Source: a virus
Strand: one strand, 5' to 3'
Virus record (IMG/VR): IMGVR_UViG_3300007509_000060
Location: 1 to 24,747 of that record
Length of the DNA: 24,747 nt
Below the pieces are notes generated by a model that did no database searches, was not told where the DNA came from, and was given only the letters and a program-made list of their open reading frames with translations. A program made the position numbers and the translations under genes. Below are positions 4,460-23,603 of the stretch, one piece after another. Within the stretch, counting starts at the first letter, position 1; every line of letters starts with the position of its first letter.

Positions 4460-5017
4460 TTACTCTCCTATATCGTTTGCGATAAGTGCTTCCTTCACTT
4501 GTTCATCACTGGTTAAATGTTCATACTCTTGGTCTAACTTTCTATACAACTGCCTCATGTGTCCTCTAAGTACATCAGCAGCGTCGTTATACATCTCATC
4601 TATCTCTGGTTGTAGCACCCTATCAAGTGCAGTAACTACCTCTTGGTGGAACTCAGTAGGTGTATCCATAAACCGTAGGTCATAGTAGTTATCGTTGTAT
4701 AGGTCTATGTCTACACTGTTCTCGTGGTAGTAGTGTCCACCATGTGTTAGTTTAAACTCCACTTGTCCGCCCTCCTCAAGGAACTCTTCCACAATAGGGT
4801 ATTCATTCATATCCATCAACTTAGTTACATCTTCTACATACCCCTCGAAACAAGCACCATCACCTTGACTCCAGAACCCACTGAACATGATGTTATCAAC
4901 GACTACACCTTGCTTCTTCATATCGTTAATAAAGTCTTCATATATAAACTCATACCAATGGTCGTAGATATTTATCTCTCTATGTTTGTCGATTAGTTCA
5001 GGGGTTATCTTAGTCAT
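4460..5017 (-). CDS. Conserved acidic phage protein (FSGFWSQGDGACFEG type)
   Basis: This 185-aa acidic protein carries FSGFWSQGDGACFEG at about residues 45-59, a strongly conserved stretch in a family of uncharacterised proteins found across tailed phages. An HGGHYYHENSVDI segment follows near 92. It overlaps the upstream VWA-protein gene by 8 nt. No catalytic assignment is possible, although the clustered His, Asp and Glu could bind metal. Function unknown, family membership likely. Confidence 0.8.
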   Translation of the reverse strand: MTKITPELIDKHREINIYDHWYEFIYEDFINDMKKQGVVVDNIMFSGFWSQGDGACFEGYVEDVTKLMDMNEYPIVEEFLEEGGQVEFKLTHGGHYYHENSVDIDLYNDNYYDLRFMDTPTEFHQEVVTALDRVLQPEIDEMYNDAADVLRGHMRQLYRKLDQEYEHLTSDEQVKEALIANDIGE

Positions 5018-6140
5018 TCATCACCACCACTTCACCAAACGGTGCGTCAGTGCTGTTCTTATCAGTAGTTACCCACAGTGTAGGAAATGGTGGCTCATCA
5101 CCAAAGTCATTACACCATAGGTCTGTTAAGAATACACATGCTACTGGTTCAATAGCCTCATCAGCGATGTATTTAAACACAGGGCTGAACGCAGTTCCAC
5201 CGCCACCATGGGGTTCGATATGCAGTTCATCATCTCGTGTAAACTTATCATACTGAGATATTGAAGTATCAAAGTATAAGACATGAATAACACTAGGCTT
5301 ACTATCTTCTTTAATCATGGTTATCTCTGCTGCGAACTGATTTATCTCATCTTGTCCGATAGAACCTGAACAATCCACTGCTACAACGAGTTCGCCCATT
5401 GCTTCACCACTACTACTTGGTAGATACATATCTTGAGATAAGAAGCGTCTGTTAGGTCTAGCCCAAGAGCGAGTGTCATCTTTACACTTCTCAACAAAGC
5501 GTTGCAACACTTCACGCCAGTCAACTTTAGGTTTAAGTACAGTTCCAACAAAGCGTTCTACTCCTGCACTCATCTTACCCATCATCTTCGCAGCCTGTGC
5601 TGCTTGTGCTACCTTAACTTTCCACTCTGCTGACTTCTGTTCCTGTTCAGCAGGGCTACCTTCAGCATCAAGACACTCATCAAGTGGGTCACCTATACCA
5701 CCAACAGAGCCTATGCTATCTTTGTTTTCAGTTTCAGTAGGTAGTATCTTATATATACCATCTGTTGTGCCACCACCTTGTTGCCATATGTCATCATCAT
5801 ACAGCCCACCTTGTGGCATTGAACCTATCTTTTCATCAACAAGTAGTTGGTTAATAACATAGTCGCCTGCACTATTCCATTTACGGATATCCTTTTCGCC
5901 TCTTCTGAACGGGTGTTCAAGCATAGGATGCATGCATTCATGAGCGACAAGGAACTTAAGTTCTTCATCAGTTAAGTTCTCACAAAACTCAGGGTTAAAC
6001 TTAACCATACTACCATTAGTCGCAGCAGTTGGAACTTCCTCTGTCACCTCAAAGGGCATGTTCAGTGCTATGTTCCCAATGAATGGGTGTTCTAACACTA
6101 ATGATGTTTTTGCCTTACTCAGGCGTTTGCTTATCTCCAT
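5010..6140 (-). CDS. VWA-like protein with HExxH metallopeptidase motif (DUF2201 type)
   Basis: I place the start at ATG 6140 (MEISKRLSK), which has AGGAGG 6 nt upstream; an in-frame ATG 11 codons earlier would overlap the neighbouring gene and lacks such a site. The product is 376 aa. The N-terminal part has HECMH (67-71), a zincin HExxH helix, followed by H76 and a WNSAGDYVIN segment typical of this family. The C-terminal part is VWA-like with a full metal-ion adhesion site: D256-x-S258-x-S260, T316 in GGGGTAF and D340 in FLTD. Proteins of this build pair with MoxR-type AAA ATPases, and one is encoded upstream at 8191-9183. The substrate is unknown. Confidence 0.9.
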   Translation of the reverse strand: MEISKRLSKAKTSLVLEHPFIGNIALNMPFEVTEEVPTAATNGSMVKFNPEFCENLTDEELKFLVAHECMHPMLEHPFRRGEKDIRKWNSAGDYVINQLLVDEKIGSMPQGGLYDDDIWQQGGGTTDGIYKILPTETENKDSIGSVGGIGDPLDECLDAEGSPAEQEQKSAEWKVKVAQAAQAAKMMGKMSAGVERFVGTVLKPKVDWREVLQRFVEKCKDDTRSWARPNRRFLSQDMYLPSSSGEAMGELVVAVDCSGSIGQDEINQFAAEITMIKEDSKPSVIHVLYFDTSISQYDKFTRDDELHIEPHGGGGTAFSPVFKYIADEAIEPVACVFLTDLWCNDFGDEPPFPTLWVTTDKNSTDAPFGEVVVMND

Positions 6141-6336
6141 TGTAATCCTCCTCTTCACGGATTCGTTTAACACAATGCTCTATGTTCATAAGTGAAGCCA
6201 TTAAAACTGACCTCGGCATATGGACAAGTAGCGTTTCAATGAGCATACCTGTTGGCAACTCATGCATATTGTCATACCACACCATTAGTGCAGTAGGATA
6301 CTCAGCCTTTAGTTTTTTTAGTTCGTCGTCTGTCAT
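6115..6336 (-). CDS. Small phage protein (73 aa)
   Basis: The ORF starts MTDDELKKLKAEYPTALMVW and ends DKQTPE. A weak AGGA lies 9 nt before the ATG. It overlaps the upstream 48-codon gene by 35 nt and the downstream VWA gene by 26 nt, both in other frames, so translation is probably coupled. The LLVHMPRSVLMASLM stretch could be an amphipathic helix. Function unknown. Confidence 0.6.
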   Translation of the reverse strand: MTDDELKKLKAEYPTALMVWYDNMHELPTGMLIETLLVHMPRSVLMASLMNIEHCVKRIREEEDYNGDKQTPE

Positions 6337-7994: not shown

Positions 7995-8191
7995 GTTATC
8001 TGTCCCTCCTCTCTTGGGTTAATAGTTGCTGATGTATACTCTACCTTGATGGCATCACCCTCATCTGGGTTAACCTCCAGTGCTTGGCACACCTCTCGCC
8101 ACACCTTATCGTTGGTAAAGTCCTCATGATACAAGTCCAATGTTCTCTGCTCCTCCTCTCCGTCCCAGCAGTGGTTAATTACCATGCTCAT
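7991..8191 (-). CDS. Small acidic phage protein (66 aa)
   Basis: The ORF begins MSMVINHCWDGEEEQRTLDL and shares one base with the stop of the upstream ATPase gene (TGATG), so it is probably made by translational reinitiation. It is acidic and has no recognised motif. The position between the ATPase and the DUF3150-like gene suggests a function with them, but this is inference. Confidence 0.65.
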   Translation of the reverse strand: MSMVINHCWDGEEEQRTLDLYHEDFTNDKVWREVCQALEVNPDEGDAIKVEYTSATINPREEGQIT

Positions 8192-9183
8192 CAGAATAAG
8201 ATTTCTTGATGCTTAACTGCCCAGTCTGTAAACGCCTTGGTACTCGCCAAGTCTGGGTTCTTCCTCGCTGCATATGACACTGACAACACACTAAACTCCG
8301 GTGGCATACGCTCTGCATAAGTACACACTCTACCAAAGTTATCCTCTGTTGCCCTCTCTGCTATCGCCCCACTCAACGCATACAGCGTCGCAGGGTCAGT
8401 CGGCACATCAGCAGTTGATGGGTTAAGTATGATGTTATCTGGGTTAGGTAGTTTGCGATATATCTTAACAAACCCTACAAACTCCGCTGCTGCACCCTCT
8501 CCAACAGCCCCTTTAAAGCACTCATACTCTGCCTCTGGTGGCACTGTCCCAAGCACATCACTCACACCATCAACCCAACTTCTAGGCGTAGCATTCTGCT
8601 CCCTCTGTGGGTCGAAGTCATGCAGTAAGTTCGGTCTAAACCTTATGAACGACACCACCTCTGGTGCAACTTCATGCTCTATCGCCCAGTTGCTCCAGTC
8701 ATCGAGGTGTGTATCAAGGTCAACTACTGTCTCTCTGTTACGCAGATGACTCAACACTCGGTTAGCCCCTGCTCTATCCTTCTGCCTGTTGCCAGTGCTT
8801 ATAACCTGCCAACCATCAGGGAGTTTATACCCATGTAATGTTCTCGCTTGACAGATGTTAGCCAATACTTTCTGCAAGTCTGCACCTGCTTGGTTCCTAT
8901 CATCGAACAACAGTATACCTTTATCAGGTGCTTTACCCTCCTGCGGAAACCACTCTGGTAAGCGGTATGTTAGGCTATCTTCATTGCTCTTATCAGGGTA
9001 AAGTATCCCAAAGTCCTCAACTAACATCGTCGGCATATGCAACTCTCTGCACTCTACTCCAAGTTCCTCCGCTGCTTCATGCACCAGTGTGGTCTTACCA
9101 CCTCCCGGACTACCCTCTATACACAATGTTCTCTGCTGTGGGAATAACGCCTTAACCGTTTCTTTCATCAATGTCGCTCTCAT
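8191..9183 (-). CDS. MoxR-type AAA+ ATPase
   Basis: This 330-aa protein has Walker A GSPGGGKT (24-31), a Walker B region GILLFDD (89-95), sensor-1 N132 in STGN, and arginines in the LRNR segment (148, 150) placed where arginine fingers are expected. The second Walker B acidic residue is Asp95 rather than the usual Glu. MoxR ATPases act with VWA-domain proteins in assembling or remodelling protein complexes, and the VWA partner candidate lies downstream at 5010-6140 in the same operon. AGGAG lies 7 nt before the ATG. Whether the pair helps virion assembly or acts on host proteins is unknown. Confidence 0.92.
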   Translation of the reverse strand: MRATLMKETVKALFPQQRTLCIEGSPGGGKTTLVHEAAEELGVECRELHMPTMLVEDFGILYPDKSNEDSLTYRLPEWFPQEGKAPDKGILLFDDRNQAGADLQKVLANICQARTLHGYKLPDGWQVISTGNRQKDRAGANRVLSHLRNRETVVDLDTHLDDWSNWAIEHEVAPEVVSFIRFRPNLLHDFDPQREQNATPRSWVDGVSDVLGTVPPEAEYECFKGAVGEGAAAEFVGFVKIYRKLPNPDNIILNPSTADVPTDPATLYALSGAIAERATEDNFGRVCTYAERMPPEFSVLSVSYAARKNPDLASTKAFTDWAVKHQEILF

Positions 9184-10228: not shown

Positions 10229-10528
10229 TTAGCCAAGTACAGTCACAGTAGGACGAGATGATTTAGCACCATCTTCCTTAGTTGGTAACATTGCAACATA
10301 CGGTGAGTTACCACGTCCACTTAACAACACTGGTGATAAGTCCTTCGCTTTACTATCCGGAGTAAAGAAGTTCAGTTCAGCATTATGTTGTTTAGCATAT
10401 CCAACCATTGCTTCATGTAGTTCGTTTACATTCTCTTGATTAAACTTACCATCTGCATTTGCTCTTACAGTGATTTTATTCTTAGTGTTTAAGATTACTT
10501 CTACGTTGCCGCTATATATTCTAGCCAT
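10229..10528 (-). CDS. 99-aa protein, paralogue of the 11674-11967 product
   Basis: The ORF begins MARIYSGNVEVILNTKNKIT, with AAGGAGA upstream of the ATG. It aligns with the 97-aa product of 11674-11967 along the N-terminal half: M.RIY.G.V....NTK.......G....EN..EL...M. The C-terminus ends in a short TVTVLG strand. The pattern suggests a small alpha/beta fold, but I do not recognise the family. It has its own promoter (10664-10692) and a terminator right after the stop, so it is a monocistronic cassette that could be made in quantity. Function unknown. Confidence 0.8.
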   Translation of the reverse strand: MARIYSGNVEVILNTKNKITVRANADGKFNQENVNELHEAMVGYAKQHNAELNFFTPDSKAKDLSPVLLSGRGNSPYVAMLPTKEDGAKSSRPTVTVLG

Positions 10529-10614
10529 GATATATTCTCCTTAAATGATGGGTATCAACCCTTATATTGTTTATGAAACCACAGTGTAGTTTCGTTTAAT
10601 GAAGTCTGTTTAAT

Positions 10615-10651
10615 GAGATTTAAGAAATTTAAAATAAAAATCCGAAATCTC
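10615..10651. repeat. Inverted repeat GAGATTT/AAATCTC in cassette-A leader
   Basis: GAGATTT (10615-10621) and AAATCTC (10645-10651) are perfect inverted copies separated by 23 AT-rich bases. It lies in the predicted 5' leader of cassette A, just after the predicted start site. A second small hairpin, GAAAC 10575-10579 / GTTTC 10589-10593, lies closer to the gene. Confidence 0.45.
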
Positions 10652-10663
10652 GACCTCGCCAAA

Positions 10664-10692
10664 AGTCTGCCACGCCGTCGCCGATTTGTCAA
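10664..10692 (-). promoter_or_regulatory. Promoter A (TTGACA-N17-CAGACT, extended -10)
   Basis: On the - strand a perfect -35 TTGACA (10692-10687) is followed after 17 nt by CAGACT (10669-10664), preceded by TGG as an extended -10. The same -35, spacing and TGGCAGAYT block occurs at promoters B and C although the spacer here is quite different, which supports selection on the motif. It should drive the 99-aa cassette with a leader of about 130 nt. Confidence 0.7.
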
Positions 10693-10805
10693 GTTTCGAC
10701 CAGTACACAGAGAAAGCGGTCGGTGTAAAGTGTAAAGTTTAAAGGGAAATGTAAAGTTATGCAGTAACCATGGTAGTAATAATCTATGTAAAGTTTAGTA
10801 GTAAT

Positions 10806-10823
10806 CGCGCGCGCGTATATATA
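10806..10823. other. Alternating CG/TA tract
   Basis: CGCGCGCGCGTATATATA is an 18-nt alternating pyrimidine-purine run within the iteron region. Such runs favour left-handed DNA or easy melting under supercoiling. It is the only such run I saw in the window. Confidence 0.5.
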
Positions 10824-11044
10824 AAGCGGTGGAAAAAATCTACTTTTGGTGTAAAGTTTTAGAAATAATCTATGTAAAGTTATGGAAATGTATTAAAAAA
10901 TGTATCGCTGTAGGGTGCGTGGTTGGTGGGTTTTCCAAAAAAAATCTATAAAATCTATTTTTTTTGAAGTAATAAGGGACTAAAAAGTTTAGAGTCTTTA
11001 AGATAATATCAAATGCAAAATTCGGGGTTGCTCTCTAAGATAGT

Positions 11045-11071
11045 TATAGATTATATAGATTATATAGATTA
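11045..11071. repeat. Triple tandem TATAGATTA, AT-rich unwinding candidate
   Basis: Three head-to-tail copies of TATAGATTA (27 nt) run from 11045 to 11071. The related TATATAGATTATTT appears twice, just after the tandem and again near 11198. The segment lies between the two iteron clusters and is almost pure A+T, as expected for a duplex-unwinding element. Confidence 0.55.
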
Positions 11072-11107
11072 TTTATATAGAGTATTATTACCTTGGATAC
11101 TTGGATT

Positions 11108-11124
11108 CCCTTATGACATAAGGG
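11108..11124. repeat. Inverted repeat CCCTTAT/ATAAGGG
   Basis: CCCTTAT (11108-11114) and ATAAGGG (11118-11124) form a 7-bp stem with a 3-nt loop just left of the first iteron palindrome. It is too short to be a terminator and has no U-run on either side. Confidence 0.35.
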
Positions 11125-11133
11125 ATTGCGGCT

Positions 11134-11151
11134 AACTTTACATGTAAAGTT
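11134..11151. repeat. Perfect 18-bp palindrome, copy 1
   Basis: AACTTTACATGTAAAGTT is two iterons placed head to head. The same palindrome occurs again at 11279-11296, and both are preceded by GCT. The symmetry suggests a site for a dimeric protein. Confidence 0.65.
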
Positions 11152-11278
11152 TTGCTTGTAACTTTACACGAAATCGTCACTATATTAAGATTATCTTATA
11201 TAGATTATTTGCAAACTTTACACCCTCTAGCCCAGTGGTAGTAAGGGATACAGCAATAATCTACTTTTTGAAAGTGCT

Positions 11279-11296
11279 AACTTTACATGTAAAGTT
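11279..11296. repeat. Perfect 18-bp palindrome, copy 2
   Basis: Second copy of AACTTTACATGTAAAGTT. Here symmetry extends to 20 bp (11278-11297, TAAC...GTTA). It is 145 bp from the first copy, about fourteen turns of the helix, which would allow looping between bound dimers. Confidence 0.65.
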
Positions 11297-11430
11297 ACAG
11301 GGGGGGTGTGTAAAGTTAGGGATAATGTAAGGTTATACCACCTAAAACTTTACATTTTATAGTGATGTGGATACTAAGGTATAACCCCCCGAAGTATGGC
11401 CAGTATATTATTTTTAAAAAATAAGACGTG

Positions 11431-11446
11431 GTTAACATATGTTAAC
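11431..11446. repeat. Perfect 16-bp palindrome GTTAACATATGTTAAC
   Basis: This palindrome is unrelated to the iteron motif and lies 17 bp left of the cassette-B terminator. Nearby, TTATTTTT and its complement form an AT palindrome at 11408-11424. Possibly an operator. Confidence 0.45.
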
Positions 11447-11462
11447 TAGTCTTTTCGCAGAC

Positions 11463-11490
11463 GAAAAAAAGCCTCGCTTTCACGAGGCTC
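11463..11490 (-). terminator. Rho-independent terminator of cassette B
   Basis: On the - strand AGCCTCG (11489-11483) and CGAGGCT (11476-11470) form a perfect 7-bp stem with a 6-nt loop, followed at once by a run of T (complement of 11464-11470). It lies 7 nt after the stop of the 42-codon ORF. Confidence 0.85.
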
Positions 11491-11496
11491 TTAGTT

Positions 11497-11625
11497 TTAC
11501 TTCTTGGTTAGTTTCTTGGCTTGTCTGAATCTATATAACTCTGACTTGCTTTTGAACTCTTGTCTTATCCAACGTTTACCGTCAGTAGACTTTTCAAGTA
11601 GTATGTATTTACGTTCATTGTTCAT
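11497..11625 (-). CDS. 42-aa basic protein of cassette B
   Basis: The start ATG 11625 has ACAGGAG 6 nt upstream. The product MNNERKYILLEKSTDGKRWI..., ending QAKKLTKK, has about one third Lys/Arg. It sits between a hairpin after the 97-aa gene and the cassette terminator, so it is the second gene of that short transcript. The high charge suggests a nucleic-acid-binding peptide, but nothing recognisable is present. Confidence 0.65.
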   Translation of the reverse strand: MNNERKYILLEKSTDGKRWIRQEFKSKSELYRFRQAKKLTKK

Positions 11626-11644
11626 AGTGAACTCCTGTAAATGT

Positions 11645-11666
11645 GAGTGGGAGGTTAATCCCACTC
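11645..11666 (-). promoter_or_regulatory. Hairpin between the two cassette-B genes
   Basis: GAGTGGGA (11645-11652) and TCCCACTC (11659-11666) form a perfect 8-bp stem with a 6-nt loop, located between the stop of the 97-aa gene and the ribosome site of the 42-codon ORF. No U-run follows, so it is not a normal terminator. It may stabilise the upstream message or control translation of the small ORF. Confidence 0.55.
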
Positions 11667-11673
11667 GGTTATA

Positions 11674-11967
11674 TTAGGCTAGTTTTTCAATCTTACTCTT
11701 ACTAGCGCCCTTCTTTTGCTCAGGCATGATGGTTAGTCTTGGGTTTCCGTAACGGTCAACCTGTAACACTGCGTCCTTTCCACCTTCAACTACGAAGTAA
11801 CTCCACTTATGCACATTCGTATCCAGTTTGTCTGCTAGTTCTAGCATCTTAGCCTTCAACTCCTCGGCGTTTTCGTTACTCCAATTGCCCTCGTTATCTC
11901 TTTTAAGTGCAATTTCACCTTTGGTATTTTTATAGATGGATACCGTACCCTCGTATATTCTACTCAT
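11674..11967 (-). CDS. 97-aa protein, paralogue of the 10229-10528 product
   Basis: The ORF begins MSRIYEGTVSIYKNTKGEIA and has ATAGGAG upstream. It aligns with the 99-aa cassette-A protein over the first half; the C-terminal half (VVEGGKDAVLQVDRYGNPRL then a Lys-rich end, KKGASKSKIEKLA) differs. The small size, NTKGEI turn and basic tail suggest a compact alpha/beta domain with a nucleic-acid-binding tail, but this is inference. It is transcribed from promoter B and probably co-expressed with the 42-codon ORF. Confidence 0.8.
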   Translation of the reverse strand: MSRIYEGTVSIYKNTKGEIALKRDNEGNWSNENAEELKAKMLELADKLDTNVHKWSYFVVEGGKDAVLQVDRYGNPRLTIMPEQKKGASKSKIEKLA

Positions 11968-11991
11968 AATATCTCCTATTTGAGTGTTTAT

Positions 11992-12041
11992 GAGCCACGA
12001 ACCTATTCCGTGGCTCGTTATATCTAGGCAACGACCGTTGC
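11992..12041 (-). promoter_or_regulatory. Two hairpins in cassette-B 5' leader
   Basis: The predicted leader (about 12047-11968) starts with GCAAC 12028-12032 / GTTGC 12037-12041, then has GAGCCACG 11992-11999 / CGTGGCTC 12009-12016, an 8-bp perfect stem. A hairpin near the 5' end of a transcript commonly protects mRNA from decay. The cassette-C leader also starts with a small hairpin. Confidence 0.5.
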
Positions 12042-12044
12042 TTC

Positions 12045-12093
12045 GATGGTTCTAATCTGCCATAGATTTACTAAAATGTCAAGTTTTGGGTTA
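12045..12093. repeat. 49-bp direct repeat, copy 1 (carries promoter B)
   Basis: This segment is identical over 49 bases to 12627-12675. Similarity continues weakly on the right (TGAAGTCG near 12110 and 12689) and reaches a C6 run at 12161-12166 and 12741-12746. It carries a full copy of promoter B, so the repeat is a duplicated control region. Confidence 0.9.
12054..12082 (-). promoter_or_regulatory. Promoter B (TTGACA-N17-CAGATT, extended -10)
   Basis: On the - strand TTGACA (12082-12077), 17 nt spacer ending TGG, then CAGATT (12059-12054). Identical to promoter C because both lie in the 49-bp repeat. It should start transcription near 12047 for the 97-aa and 42-aa genes. Confidence 0.72.
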
Positions 12094-12121
12094 AATGGAC
12101 TGTATTATGAAGTCGATTGCA

Positions 12122-12140
12122 GGGTATACGCCATATACCC
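12122..12140. repeat. Inverted repeat GGGTATA/TATACCC
   Basis: A perfect 7-bp stem with a 5-nt loop (cgcca) upstream of promoter B. It is followed on the + strand by ATTTTAGG, too weak for a confident terminator. Possibly an operator half-site pair. Confidence 0.35.
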
Positions 12141-12204
12141 ATTTTAGGGGCATGCTTTGACCCCCCGAGTGTATAGATAAATATTTATTTAAAAATAAAA
12201 AGAC

Positions 12205-12229
12205 AAAAAGAAACCCTGCTTTCGCAGGG
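12205..12229 (-). terminator. Rho-independent terminator of cassette C
   Basis: On the - strand CCCTGC-GAAA-GCAGGG (12229-12214) forms a 6-bp stem with a stable GAAA tetraloop, followed by TTTCTTTTT. It lies just after the stop of the 28-codon ORF. Confidence 0.85.
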
Positions 12230-12236
12230 CTCTTGG

Positions 12237-12323
12237 TTATGTGTATAACGATATCACTGTGTATATGTATAGTATCATCACTGTGGCTGCAAATGCAATC
12301 GCTATGTTTACTATTGTATTCAT
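12237..12323 (-). CDS. 28-aa hydrophobic peptide of cassette C
   Basis: The start ATG 12323 has AAGGAG 6 nt upstream (AAGGAGTACATATG). The product MNTIVNIAIAFAATVMILYI..., ending ISLYT, is almost entirely hydrophobic and fits one membrane span with no charged tail. It precedes the terminator by a few bases, so it is the last gene of cassette C. Too short for database recognition; could be a membrane-targeted early peptide. Confidence 0.6.
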   Translation of the reverse strand: MNTIVNIAIAFAATVMILYIYTVISLYT

Positions 12324-12340
12324 ATGTACTCCTTGGTTGC

Positions 12341-12356
12341 GAGGGCTTGCGCCCTC
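12341..12356 (-). promoter_or_regulatory. GCAA-tetraloop hairpin between cassette-C genes
   Basis: GAGGGC-GCAA-GCCCTC on the - strand is a perfect 6-bp stem with a GNRA loop, between the RHH gene stop and the ribosome site of the 28-codon ORF. It occupies the same relative place as the hairpin in cassette B (11645-11666). No U-run follows. Confidence 0.55.
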
Positions 12357-12363
12357 TGGGTTA

Positions 12364-12588
12364 TTAGTGTTGGTCGTACCATTCTTCCCACTCATCAATT
12401 ATGCTCTCTAAGGCTTGTGCAACAACCTTGGTTTTTGATATCTGGAACCCATAGTCCTTAGCCTGTTGGTGTACTAGGTTAAACCTTGATAGCAATTCTG
12501 GGTCTACCCTTATAGATATCAGCTTTGTTTTAACCTTGTCTTTCCTATACACTCCAAACTTTTCGTTTAACCGTTTCATTTCACTCAT
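12364..12588 (-). CDS. Ribbon-helix-helix-like DNA-binding protein (74 aa)
   Basis: ATG 12588 has GGAG 6 nt upstream. After a short basic leader (MSEMKRLNEKFGVYRKDKVK) comes TKLISIRVDPELLSRF, the beta-strand plus helix of a ribbon-helix-helix fold, then ISKTKVVAQALESIIDEW as the second helix. RHH proteins bind DNA as dimers at short palindromic or repeated sites and often repress their own promoter. Such sites are abundant nearby (iterons, palindromes, promoter repeats), so this is the best candidate regulator in the window. The target site is not shown by sequence. Confidence 0.75.
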   Translation of the reverse strand: MSEMKRLNEKFGVYRKDKVKTKLISIRVDPELLSRFNLVHQQAKDYGFQISKTKVVAQALESIIDEWEEWYDQH

Positions 12589-12609
12589 ATGTATCTCCGT
12601 TTATTAACA

Positions 12610-12627
12610 CAAAGCAATACCGCTTTG
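12610..12627 (-). promoter_or_regulatory. Small hairpin at the start of the cassette-C leader
   Basis: CAAAGC (12610-12615) and GCTTTG (12622-12627) pair with a 6-nt loop, right after the predicted start site of promoter C. It corresponds in position to the GCAAC/GTTGC hairpin of cassette B although the sequence differs, which suggests that structure is kept rather than sequence. Confidence 0.4.
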
Positions 12628-12675
12628 ATGGTTCTAATCTGCCATAGATTTACTAAAATGTCAAGTTTTGGGTTA
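12627..12675. repeat. 49-bp direct repeat, copy 2 (carries promoter C)
   Basis: Identical over 49 bases to 12045-12093. The 582-bp spacing between copies covers the whole of cassette C, consistent with a past duplication of the promoter region, after which the genes diverged or were replaced. Confidence 0.9.
12636..12664 (-). promoter_or_regulatory. Promoter C (TTGACA-N17-CAGATT, extended -10)
   Basis: On the - strand TTGACA (12664-12659), 17-nt spacer ending TGG, CAGATT (12641-12636). It drives the RHH gene and the 28-codon ORF, with a leader of about 40 nt. Confidence 0.72.
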
Positions 12676-12794
12676 TATAGACCTATTTGAAGTCGTTTGG
12701 TGGCTTGGACGCACGGGGGGCACATGGACTGGAACTTCGACCCCCCACCCCTATAGAAGTAAACCTCTCAACCCAAGACCTCCAAATAGCATCG

Positions 12795-12815
12795 CTTTAC
12801 ACATCCGTAAAGTTA
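12795..12815. repeat. Isolated iteron-like inverted pair upstream of the structural promoter
   Basis: CTTTACA (12795-12801) and CGTAAAGTTA (12806-12815) are degenerate copies of the TGTAAAGTT motif in inverted orientation with a short spacer. They lie about 46 bp upstream of the -35 box at 12861. This places a putative binding site next to the rightward promoter. The rest of 12676-12860 is C-rich on the + strand with no gene that I can support. Confidence 0.4.
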
Positions 12816-12860
12816 CCCCCTTCGTCCAGCCCCTCCCCCAAAAAATTCCCAATAAAAAAT

Positions 12861-12889
12861 TTGCGCAGGCTATCAAATCCTGATATAGT
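12861..12889 (+). promoter_or_regulatory. Rightward promoter for the morphogenesis genes
   Basis: TTGCGC (12861-12866), a 17-nt spacer, and TATAGT (12884-12889) with TGA just before it as an extended -10. The predicted start site is about 12896, the A of the first ATG. This fits a sigma70-type promoter making a leaderless first message. Confidence 0.65.
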
Positions 12890-12895
12890 ACAACC

Positions 12896-13381
12896 ATGGA
12901 TAGATTACCGATTAACCACACCAAGTGGTCAGACAGGCTAGCGTTTGATATTGCATTGCTCTTAGAGAAGAGTGGTGAAACACTGGATGAAGTTATTGAA
13001 AGGCATGGTATTACCTCGAGTGAGATGCTGGTATTCAATGAAGACCCAGTGTTTCGTAAGAAGGTAGATGGTTATAGGGAAGAGGTTAAAGAGAAAGGTA
13101 TGACGTTTAGGCTTAAGGCGCGAGCCCAAGCTGAAGAATTATTAATGACGTCATGGCAACTTATACATAGCCCAGAAGTTTCCCCTAGTGTAAAGGCGGA
13201 TTTGATTAAGTCGACAGTTAAGTGGGGAGACTTGGAGCCTAAGACAAATTCAGCAGACGTGGAAGCTGGTGGTGGGGTGAAGATAACAATTAACCTCGGT
13301 GATTCTACGCACCAGATGAAAGTGGTGGACCATGAGCCTACAGGTACAGAAGAGCAAGCCGAGCTTATTGACGCTAGTTAA
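12896..13381 (+). CDS. Putative terminase small subunit
   Basis: This 161-aa protein is first in the morphogenesis group and lies two genes before the large terminase, the usual place of the small subunit. The N-terminal part (KSGETLDEVIERHGITSSEM) looks like a helix-turn-helix, and RLKARAQAEELLMTSWQLIH is a conserved helical stretch in such phage proteins. The C-terminus has VKITINLGD. An in-frame TGA stop lies 5 codons upstream (12881-12883) and there is no Shine-Dalgarno before the ATG, so the start is fixed and probably leaderless. The small-terminase function is inferred from position and fold hints. Confidence 0.7.
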   Translation: MDRLPINHTKWSDRLAFDIALLLEKSGETLDEVIERHGITSSEMLVFNEDPVFRKKVDGYREEVKEKGMTFRLKARAQAEELLMTSWQLIHSPEVSPSVKADLIKSTVKWGDLEPKTNSADVEAGGGVKITINLGDSTHQMKVVDHEPTGTEEQAELIDAS

Positions 13382-13763
13382 GACGTTTGACCAGGTGTAT
13401 GAGGAGTTGCCTGCGACGAGGTTTAATACGACGCGGGCGTATCATGACTTTGCGAATGATTTAATTGACCATGGTGTGAGCTTTAGGGTTAAGATACTGA
13501 AGAAGCGTAGGACTCGGCCGAGTCAGATTGTGGTGATGCTACTACAGACGGTGGACATGACCAGACCAGATGCGCCGCCGCTTGAACCGCATGACCATGA
13601 CGAGGGGAATCCCAACAGTGAGGACTGTACAGATACGGTTGATATAGTTGGGGCGTGTCCGACGTGTGGGGTGTTGATGACTAACAGTGAGTGGTGTGCA
13701 TACTGCGGGGAAGACGCAGCGAGTTTGTATAAACAGGAGAGTGAGAATGGGGCAAGGCACTGA
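13332..13763 (+). CDS. Phage protein with C-terminal zinc ribbon
   Basis: This frame overlaps the previous gene by 50 nt if ATG 13332 is used; the true start may be a little later (a TTG at 13368 or GTG at 13398). The product is up to 143 aa, with a basic centre (RVKILKKRRTRPSQIVVML) and C109-x2-C112 plus C122-x2-C125, a zinc-ribbon pattern. It overlaps the large terminase start by 17 nt, so the two are probably coupled. Function unknown. Confidence 0.65.
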   Translation: MSLQVQKSKPSLLTLVKTFDQVYEELPATRFNTTRAYHDFANDLIDHGVSFRVKILKKRRTRPSQIVVMLLQTVDMTRPDAPPLEPHDHDEGNPNSEDCTDTVDIVGACPTCGVLMTNSEWCAYCGEDAASLYKQESENGARH

Positions 13764-15138
13764 GATAAACTATACGCCGCCTAAGACAGGTAGGGAATTT
13801 ATGATGAGTGGTGCGCAGATGCGCACACTTATGGGGCCTGTTGGTAGTGGCAAATCGGTTACGTGTTCGTTTGAGATAGTCAGGAGGGCGACGTTGCAGG
13901 AGCCCAACGAGCAGGGGATACGCAAGACCAGGGCGGCTGTGGTCAGGGAGACGGCGAGGCAGCTGGCGGATACGACGATTAAGACGTTTTTGGATTGGTT
14001 CCCGCCGGGGCAGTGTGGGCGGTATATGCGCACGACGAAGACGTATTTCATGAAGATGGGGGATGTTGAGTGTGAGGTGATGTTCCGAGCGCTGGACGAC
14101 GCGGACGACGTGGCGAACCTTAACTCACTGGAGCTGACATTCGCTTGGTTTAATGAGTGTAGGGACATACACCCTGACATTATTGATGCGATGTCTAAAC
14201 GTGTGGGGCGATTCCCGAGTAATAAGGACGGGGGGCCGACGTGGCATGGGATGTGGGGGGATACCAACCCGCCGACGATGGACACGTGGTGGTATTATCA
14301 GATGGAGCACCTCGACCCTAAGGATGGGGTGAGTGAGAATGATAACGGGTGGGAGGTGTTTAAGCAGCCGTCTGGTCGTAGCCCTGAGGGGGAGAATGTT
14401 GAGAACTTGCCAGAGGGGTATTATGATACTCAGGGTAGGTCTGAAGAATATATAAGGGTTTATATTGATGGTGAGTATGGGCTATCAAGTGCTGGCATGC
14501 CGGTGTACAAATACTTTCGCCCTGATTACCACATGGCGCATGAGCCACTTAATCCGATTGTTAACGGTGTGAGGCCCATCGTTGTGGGGATGGACTTGGG
14601 GTTGACGCCTGCGGCAGTCATCGGACAGCAGGATGCAAAGGGGCGAGCGATAATCCTTGACGAGGCTGTCAGCTTCGACATGGGGATACAGAGATTTATG
14701 CGGACGGTTCTCAAGCCGTTGTTATATGAGAGATTTCCAGGGAGTCCAGTGATGATAATCGTGGACCCAGCTGGTGTGCAGAGAGCACAGACGGATGAGC
14801 GCACGGTGGTGGAGATTATTAAGGCGGAGGGGTTCAAGGTTAAGCCTGCGAAGACTAACAATGTGTCGGCGCGACTCAACGCGGTGGACGAATACTTGAT
14901 GAGACACGTGGACGGTGAGACGGCATTCCTCGTTGACCCTAGGTGTACGAAACTTAAGAGTGCGATGATGGGTGGGTATCGGTATCATAAGAAGAATGGT
15001 ACGATTGATAAGAACAAACACTCGCATGTCGCGGAGGCGCTGCAGTATCTGATGCTTCATATCGGTAGTATTGACGAGGGTGTAGAATTAAATCGCAGAA
15101 GGGATGTAAAACCGGTTGCGGCGATGGGATGGACATGA
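13747..15138 (+). CDS. terL: Terminase large subunit
   Basis: The start is ATG 13747 (MGQGTEINYTP), with AGGAGA 6 nt upstream, in preference to an upstream in-frame ATG at 13687. The product is 463 aa. The ATPase part has Walker A GPVGSGKS (30-37) and a Walker B region LTFAWFNE, where Asn136-Glu137 replaces Asp-Glu. The nuclease part (RNase H fold) has D283 in VVGMDLGLTPAA, D340 in IIVDPAG and a C-terminal DKNKHSHVAEALQYL (D421 or E430 as third acid). It packages DNA into the prohead through the portal. G+C is clearly higher than in neighbouring genes, for example 39 of 60 bases at 14221-14280. Confidence 0.95.
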   Translation: MGQGTEINYTPPKTGREFMMSGAQMRTLMGPVGSGKSVTCSFEIVRRATLQEPNEQGIRKTRAAVVRETARQLADTTIKTFLDWFPPGQCGRYMRTTKTYFMKMGDVECEVMFRALDDADDVANLNSLELTFAWFNECRDIHPDIIDAMSKRVGRFPSNKDGGPTWHGMWGDTNPPTMDTWWYYQMEHLDPKDGVSENDNGWEVFKQPSGRSPEGENVENLPEGYYDTQGRSEEYIRVYIDGEYGLSSAGMPVYKYFRPDYHMAHEPLNPIVNGVRPIVVGMDLGLTPAAVIGQQDAKGRAIILDEAVSFDMGIQRFMRTVLKPLLYERFPGSPVMIIVDPAGVQRAQTDERTVVEIIKAEGFKVKPAKTNNVSARLNAVDEYLMRHVDGETAFLVDPRCTKLKSAMMGGYRYHKKNGTIDKNKHSHVAEALQYLMLHIGSIDEGVELNRRRDVKPVAAMGWT

Positions 15139-21642: not shown

Positions 21643-21975
21643 ATGGCTGATGTAATTAAATTAGTAAAGGGTGATGAGAAACCAGTAATTGTTTTAACGC
21701 TTACAGATGATGTTGCAGGCGGGGCATTAGATTTATCAGCAGCCTCAACAGTAGTGACAGTTAAATTCAGAGCAATGGGCAGTACAACATTATTATCTAC
21801 AATATCCACGACAAAGTTAGATAGTGGTACGACAGGTAAAGTACAGTTTGATTTCAGCGGCGGCGTGTTAGATGTTGATGCAGGTGCCTATGAGGGTGAG
21901 ATAGTTGTAACGTATGGTAGTGATGTACATACAGTGTATGACACATTGAGGTTTAGGTTAAGAGATAATTTCTAG
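21643..21975 (+). CDS. BppU-N-like small structural protein
   Basis: This 110-aa all-beta protein has GAGG upstream of the ATG. The sequence (IKLVKGDEKPVIVLTLTD, LDLSAASTVVTVKFRAMG, GAYEGEIVVTYGS) resembles the N-terminal domain of baseplate upper proteins (BppU_N, DUF2479), which forms an immunoglobulin-like fold. It ends 1 nt into the start of the next gene. Likely a small virion or adaptor protein. Confidence 0.6.
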   Translation: MADVIKLVKGDEKPVIVLTLTDDVAGGALDLSAASTVVTVKFRAMGSTTLLSTISTTKLDSGTTGKVQFDFSGGVLDVDAGAYEGEIVVTYGSDVHTVYDTLRFRLRDNF

Positions 21976-23603
21976 TGAACATAAAATTTACAGCAGCATT
22001 ATCAACGATTGTATTAGCCTCGGCATCAGTGTCGAGTGCTTCTGCTGTAAAGGCTGAAAACTCTATAGGTGTGACAGCTGCACCACTAACTTCAATTAGC
22101 GCAACAGCGTATATAGTACCACTAACAATTTTATCAGAGCAGACAGTTACAGCATCTGATGTTGTTAATACTATTGCTGTTACTAAACCTAAATCAGAGA
22201 CGTTAACAACATCAGATGCCTATACGGTTAATGTAACTAAGTCATTTGCTAGTGCAGTAACTGCTGATTCATCGCTTAATAAGATATTCCACTCGTCTGT
22301 CGACTTCGATATGAGTGATGCGGATGTAGACCCTGACCCAGTTACAGTTGTAGATGCTACAGCATTTGACCTCGGTAGAGGAATCTCAGACTCGGTAACA
22401 TCTAGTGACAGTGTGAGTAACGCGCCGAGTAAATCTGTATCAGGCGACACAGTCACAGCAAGTGATACGCTTAATAGAAAAGACATAGGTACGAACCCGA
22501 CTGACTCAGTAACCGCTTCAGATTCAGATGCTAAGTCGGCGACGACGACGGCTAGTTCAACGACGACAGCGACAGATAGTATAGGTAAGACAGTTAGTAT
22601 TACTGAGGCATCGAGTGTAACTGCCACAGCCGTAGTAAGTAAAATATTCCATTCCTCAGTTGACTTCGATATGAGTGACGCTGATGTAGACCCTGACCCG
22701 GTGACTGCTTCAGATACTGCAGCCTTAGAGCCTATGAAGAGTACAACGAGCACACTCACAGCAACAGACTCTGACGCGAAGAGCGTTACATCTGGAGCTA
22801 CATCAACTGCAACAGCATCAGATAGTGCTACTACAAACCCTACAAGCAACCAGACTGAGACCTTAACAGCGAGCGACTCGGTAGCGACAAGCCCTACATC
22901 TGTCCAGTCTGACCCTATTACAATGGCGGACGTACTCAATACGTTTACCTACAATAAGAACAAAACTGATGCAGTCACTGCAGCAGACACTATTAACTCA
23001 GTTGAGATTACGAAGGCGATAACAAGTCTAGTATCTACGACGAGTACAATCGTTAAACAGTTCACATCCGCAGTCGACTACGACTTAGCTGACGTTGACG
23101 TAGACCCTGACCCGGTGACTGCAGCTGACGCGATTAACACATTCGGTGTAACTAAAGCCCTGACATCAACTGCTTCCGCAAGTGACTCAGACGCTAAGAA
23201 TGTCACATCTGTACTTACTTCAGCTGCAACAGCTGCTGAGAGTATTGTCCTTACCTTAACCTTAGGTGAGACAAACCAGTATTGGGACGAAGTATTTATG
23301 TCTGACGGTGAGTCAGGCTTCTTACATACACCAAGAGTTTTAGCTGTCATCGACTACGACTGCCTGCTAGGCGGCGAACACAGCTTACTAAATTCAGCTC
23401 GATTCCCTGACGGGTGTGCTGATAGTACGACATACGAAGCGCACACAGGAACTATCGGTGCGCCAGGCTTGGTTAACGAGCCTGTTATGAACCACGGTCT
23501 AATTACATATCCTGACACAAGCGGTGCAGGTTTTGTGGTAGACTTCCACTATCCAACATTAGCACTCGGGGCTTATATGGTTAATACAACCTCTATTACA
23601 TAG
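21975..23603 (+). CDS. Large Ser/Thr/Asp-rich repeat virion protein
   Basis: The start is GTG 21975, which shares one base with the upstream stop (TAGTG) and has no clear Shine-Dalgarno, so translation is probably coupled. The 542-aa product consists of imperfect repeats of the kind SVTASDS (about 20-25 aa each), with an acidic element VDFDMSDADVDPDPV at residues about 109, 229 and a variant (VDYDLADVDVDPDPV) at 367. A different C-terminal domain (from about 433, QYWDEVFMSDGESG) has an Asp/Gly-rich, cysteine-containing fold. The first 28 residues resemble a signal peptide but may just be the first repeat. Likely a fibrous tail or head appendage. Confidence 0.65.
   Translation: MNIKFTAALSTIVLASASVSSASAVKAENSIGVTAAPLTSISATAYIVPLTILSEQTVTASDVVNTIAVTKPKSETLTTSDAYTVNVTKSFASAVTADSSLNKIFHSSVDFDMSDADVDPDPVTVVDATAFDLGRGISDSVTSSDSVSNAPSKSVSGDTVTASDTLNRKDIGTNPTDSVTASDSDAKSATTTASSTTTATDSIGKTVSITEASSVTATAVVSKIFHSSVDFDMSDADVDPDPVTASDTAALEPMKSTTSTLTATDSDAKSVTSGATSTATASDSATTNPTSNQTETLTASDSVATSPTSVQSDPITMADVLNTFTYNKNKTDAVTAADTINSVEITKAITSLVSTTSTIVKQFTSAVDYDLADVDVDPDPVTAADAINTFGVTKALTSTASASDSDAKNVTSVLTSAATAAESIVLTLTLGETNQYWDEVFMSDGESGFLHTPRVLAVIDYDCLLGGEHSLLNSARFPDGCADSTTYEAHTGTIGAPGLVNEPVMNHGLITYPDTSGAGFVVDFHYPTLALGAYMVNTTSIT

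Follow-up and report, generated by a model that had tools for sequence, protein, structure and literature searches.

A predicted iteron-type replication origin with a melting-prone core in a group of uncultured marine phages

Introduction

The replication origins of most uncultured phages are unknown. A 24,747-base DNA fragment (the window; 24.7 kb) from an uncultured tailed phage carries, at 10.7–11.4 kb, a dense array of a 9-bp repeat, which a first-pass annotation had read as a candidate phage replication origin. The phage group to which it belongs has been recovered repeatedly in viral metagenomes. Here we asked whether this array is an origin or serves another function, and which phage protein might bind it. 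Our analysis indicates that the region is probably an iteron-type replication origin with a central melting region in this phage group.

Results

Organization of the iteron array

The iteron TGTAAAGTT is present in 13 exact copies in the window, all within 10731–11354, eight on the plus strand (10731, 10750, 10787, 10850, 10873, 11143, 11288, and 11309) and five on the minus strand (11134, 11160, 11214, 11279, and 11346). Near copies are located at 10724 (TGTAAAGTG) and 11326 (TGTAAGGTT). These counts and directions and the overall span agree with the first-pass annotation, and the enrichment that it had proposed to check was borne out: no exact copy occurs outside the array in the 24,747-base record, the window simulated 200 times with an order-2 model gave a maximum of three copies per 650 bp for any 9-mer, and the chance expectation of TGTAAAGTT in the gap, given the gap's own composition, is 0.04. 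The array therefore shows the clustered repeats of an iteron-type origin, with 13 exact copies within 624 bp of non-coding DNA.

The left cluster (10724–10881, plus strand) consists of five exact copies and the near copy at 10724 in a single direction, and it is likewise one-directional in contigs L002, L009, L010, and L012. The right cluster (11134–11354) contains eight exact copies in mixed directions and the near copy at 11326. It includes two perfect palindromic iteron pairs (11134–11151 and 11279–11296), which had escaped the earlier reading. An alternating CG/TA tract lies at approximately 10805–10825, as had been noted.

No ORF of at least 60 aa was kept in 10529–11673. The earlier description of this DNA as gene-free holds for 10529–11496 but not beyond, where a conserved 42-codon ORF is found (11497–11625, minus strand). 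An intrinsic-terminator-like hairpin (11467–11492, minus strand) would stop leftward transcription from the right before the array. An Rfam search for known structured RNA gave no match. Host DnaA boxes were considered and rejected, with a single one-mismatch match (11366) and no cluster in the array region. A conserved block, TATAACCCCCCGAAGTATGGC, is located to the right of the array (11375–11402) and also occurs in L009, L010, and L024. Two paralogous small proteins of 99 and 97 aa (ca. 29% identical; 10229–10528 and 11674–11967, both minus strand) flank the iteron region; they are conserved in the sisters, and neither PHROG nor Pfam matched them with confidence.

A second dispersed motif, AATAATCTA (motif B), absent from the first-pass annotation, occurs above chance in the gap. 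Its exact copies are dispersed within 10778–11263, on the plus strand at 10778, 10864, and 11255 and on the minus strand at 11065 and 11201. The triple TATAGATTA tandem at 11045–11071, present as originally noted, is a head-to-tail array of motif B (TAGATTAT/ATAATCTA). Motif B takes the form ATAATCTA in the sisters, and many of the distant members carry it as ACTATCTA. The copies at 10864 and 11201 were kept in 10/10 and 9/10 aligned contigs, respectively, some of these contigs being near-identical.

Conservation in related phages

Relatives were collected by a TerL search, which yielded 80 viral contigs. In three sisters with longer records (G001, G002, and G003), 11, 15, and 11 AACTT[T/G]ACA sites were found, respectively, all in a conserved gap flanked by the moxR-like gene and by the gene preceding terL; in G002 this is the longest ORF-free gap of the record. 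All 16 sites of G023, whose primase-helicase (see below) is 45% identical, are also in the gap. The other distant members have just 3–7 sites there, and in several of them the sites outside the gap equal or outnumber those within it, which counts against an origin. The exact retention of aligned sites was 0.47 for the iteron and 0.60 for motif B, compared with 0.21 for all 9-mers, in a comparison that includes near-identical contigs (L124/window, L126/L010, and L128/L009) and thus overstates independence.

No DNA-level relatives were found among cultured phages. Two scans of genome contigs for a host gave no match and a single match, respectively; since the latter was to a single short contig from a MAG with a Bacillota label, which is insufficient, we do not name a host.

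The melting-prone core

Nearest-neighbour stability was calculated along the window. The least stable 200 bp of the record (10929–11128), 100 bp (10990–11089), and 60 bp (11031–11090) were all found beside the iterons, so that the array adjoins an AT-rich region expected to unwind, and we regard 10929–11128 as a candidate DNA unwinding element. Among 16 relatives, the least stable 100 bp was inside the gap, which makes up ca. 5–15% of the record, in 14; two of these, scored "out" by the script, were assigned by hand (G016 ends within the gap, and the gap of G018 wraps the record ends). The exceptions were G014, in which the 200-bp minimum alone is inside the gap, and G017. The least stable DNA of two cultured phages, Rollin and RHph_TM3_14A, is also in the corresponding gap. 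This co-location supports an origin but falls short of proof, because AT-rich intergenic DNA is common; a regulatory region would also show AT-rich DNA and clustered sites, which counts against the origin.

A GC-skew inflection near 11 kb had also been proposed as support. In the window and the sisters alike, the cumulative GC skew does have its minimum close to the array. However, skew follows the coding strand here, staying negative over the leftward genes on the array's right side (11497–12588); the skew is therefore uninformative on the origin.

A primase-helicase and a small HTH protein encoded in sister records

It had been stated that no initiator gene is visible in the window. This is so; the longer sister records carry a gene of initiator type, ca. 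15 kb from the array and outside the window. In G002, the leftward arm is closed by a gene for a 948-aa protein (11273–14119) in which an archaeo-eukaryotic primase (AEP) is fused to a DUF927 helicase (DUF927 match, E 1e-27). Its N-terminus is AEP-like, with invariant D78, D80, H119, and D152, and a Walker A motif is also present. AEP-DUF927 fusions have been described in mobile elements (PMC5862659). The protein matched SCCmec Cch and SaPIbov1 Rep by PDB sequence (8tch, 5dgk), and its predicted fold (mean pLDDT 73) matched Cch and SaPI Rep with E values of 4e-18 and 1e-12. A SaPI Rep-related initiator helicase is thus encoded in the sister records, as judged from PDB sequence and fold matches.

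Two features of this protein count against the origin. Its gene is ca. 15 kb away from the array, unlike the adjacent arrangement in SaPIs: in G002 it ends at a convergent gene, the array is at 29058–29757, and the iterons are not directly downstream of the rep gene. In addition, SaPI Rep binds iterons through its C-terminal domain (PMC7581432), and the isolated C-terminal domain here, despite a confident model (pLDDT 89), has a weak PDB match to Cch (E 0.13).

A small XRE-like HTH protein (HTH98) is encoded beside the primase-helicase in G002, and HTH98 is found in 16/16 relatives with a conserved recognition helix. The primase-helicase itself and the neighbouring HTH98 are the candidate iteron binders.

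Elsewhere in the window, the replication arm encodes an HslV-like peptidase (2509–2946), a DUF2201 metallopeptidase/VWA protein (5010–6173), and a MoxR-like ATPase (8191–9183), all on the minus strand. In the structural arm, a Ser/Thr/Ala-rich ORF of 542 aa (21975–23603, plus strand) contains TASDS-like units in repeated form.

Overlap with predicted promoters and possible alternative functions of the array

Three leftward promoter-like sites (10687, 12077, and 12659), all of them consensus matches, have their -35 box within AACTTGACA, which differs from the iteron by one base. Each has a 17-nt spacer followed by TGGCAGAYT, and the sisters G001–G003 have counterparts. In G023, most iterons read AACTTGACA. 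The site next to the array is a predicted leftward early promoter (10667–10695, minus strand) that matches the consensus, with AACTTGACA, the 17-nt spacer, and a TG-extended CAGACT; it was absent from the results of a generic promoter scan. Its -35 box lies in a one-mismatch iteron site, TGTCAAGTT (10687–10695), which is likewise new relative to the earlier reading. The idea that the iterons proper are -35 boxes of many promoters was rejected, since no -10 was found at fixed spacing among 73 sites. Because AACTTGACA contains early leftward -35 boxes, early transcription may also be under the control of the protein that binds the iterons. Repression of its own promoter is frequent for a plasmid Rep protein, and the overlap suggests a similar autoregulation by the iteron binder.

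The main rival explanation is that the array is an operator cluster through which a phage transcription regulator, most likely HTH98, controls early promoters, while replication starts elsewhere. The -35 boxes within AACTTGACA, the position of the array directly upstream of the leftward promoter, and the presence of HTH98 with its conserved helix in each of the 16 relatives all agree with it. However, the sites are spread over ca. 630 bp in both directions, the iterons themselves have no -10 at fixed spacing, the melting minimum shares the gap in most relatives, and the primase-helicase is of a replication-initiator type. We consider this explanation rather unlikely.

Far less probable is that the array serves in packaging, as a pac/cos site to which terminase binds. 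Some phages do have repeats of this kind, and the array is ca. 1.5–2.2 kb from the gene preceding terL; however, the corresponding AT-rich gap of Rollin and RHph_TM3_14A opens the replication arm and is separated from the terminase by several kb, and contig starts are spread with no pile-up at the array. A plasmid-like partition or copy-control site is the least credible: plasmid ribbon-helix-helix (RHH) proteins bind such arrays and a small RHH-like protein, recognized by eye, is encoded 1 kb away (12364–12588), but it has no Pfam RHH match, no partition ATPase was recognized in the gene lists, and its gene is unmatched in all 16 relatives tested, so that the iterons persist where it is absent and we rejected it as the binder.

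Discussion

An iteron-type origin at 10.7–11.4 kb is the explanation best supported by the conservation of the iterons, the co-location of the least stable DNA, and the initiator-type primase-helicase of the sisters, and it remains a prediction from sequence. A phage protein would bind the AACTT[T/G]ACA iterons on either side of the very AT-rich core, which would then melt. The primase-helicase would load at the core, unwind the DNA, and prime it for the phage DNA polymerase, so that replication would start there. The iteron binder may also damp early transcription through the variant that holds the leftward -35 box, which would amount to autoregulation.

More speculatively, these phages may represent a class of origin built on a single 9-bp code that serves both a one-protein primase-helicase and its dedicated small HTH partner. 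AACTTTACA would mark the origin and AACTTGACA would hold the early -35 box, and one protein might couple early transcription to replication ca. 15 kb from its own gene. For a group of uncultured phages, the analysis provides a sequence-defined origin candidate together with two named candidate binders.

Among known systems, lambda-type and iteron-plasmid origins likewise have iterons adjoining an AT-rich segment, but their initiator family is unrelated, and no O-, Pi-, or RepA-type initiator was recognized in the gene lists here. The primase-polymerase of the deep-sea phage NrS-1 likewise belongs to the AEP family, and it prefers to recognize TTTGGTTA or GTG on the template (PMC8718748); its helicase type and sequence differ from those here.

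Pseudomonas phage Rollin (OR577172) encodes homologues of the primase-helicase (27%), the polymerase, SNF2, and the exonuclease, and it has repeat families and its least stable DNA in a gap where the replication arm begins. However, its repeat sequences differ, and no HTH98 homologue was detected. The Rollin gap (L105:1–680), where the record has no annotation, contains AAAAGGTAG in ca. nine copies and TATGCAA in ca. eight. The corresponding gap of RHph_TM3_14A is AT-rich, but no comparable strong repeat family was found in it.

A close parallel is with the replication starters of the Staphylococcus pathogenicity islands (SaPI) and SCCmec (Cch/Cch2). The helicase region is related to SaPIbov1 Rep and SCCmec Cch by sequence and predicted fold, and short repeated sites beside AT-rich DNA are common to the SaPI origin and the array, with binding here being predicted. 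In contrast to SaPI and SCCmec, the helicase here is fused to an AEP primase domain and carried by a phage. Whereas the SaPI array lies directly downstream of its gene, the array here is distant from it, has a different repeat and a second motif, and includes an iteron variant overlapping promoter -35 boxes. The array thus appears to resemble SaPI-type origins in its working, but we do not class it as one, since the rep gene has no iterons downstream and binding is putative. It points to a phage counterpart of the SaPI/SCCmec replication starters, which is amenable to testing with purified proteins or in Rollin, a relative in culture.
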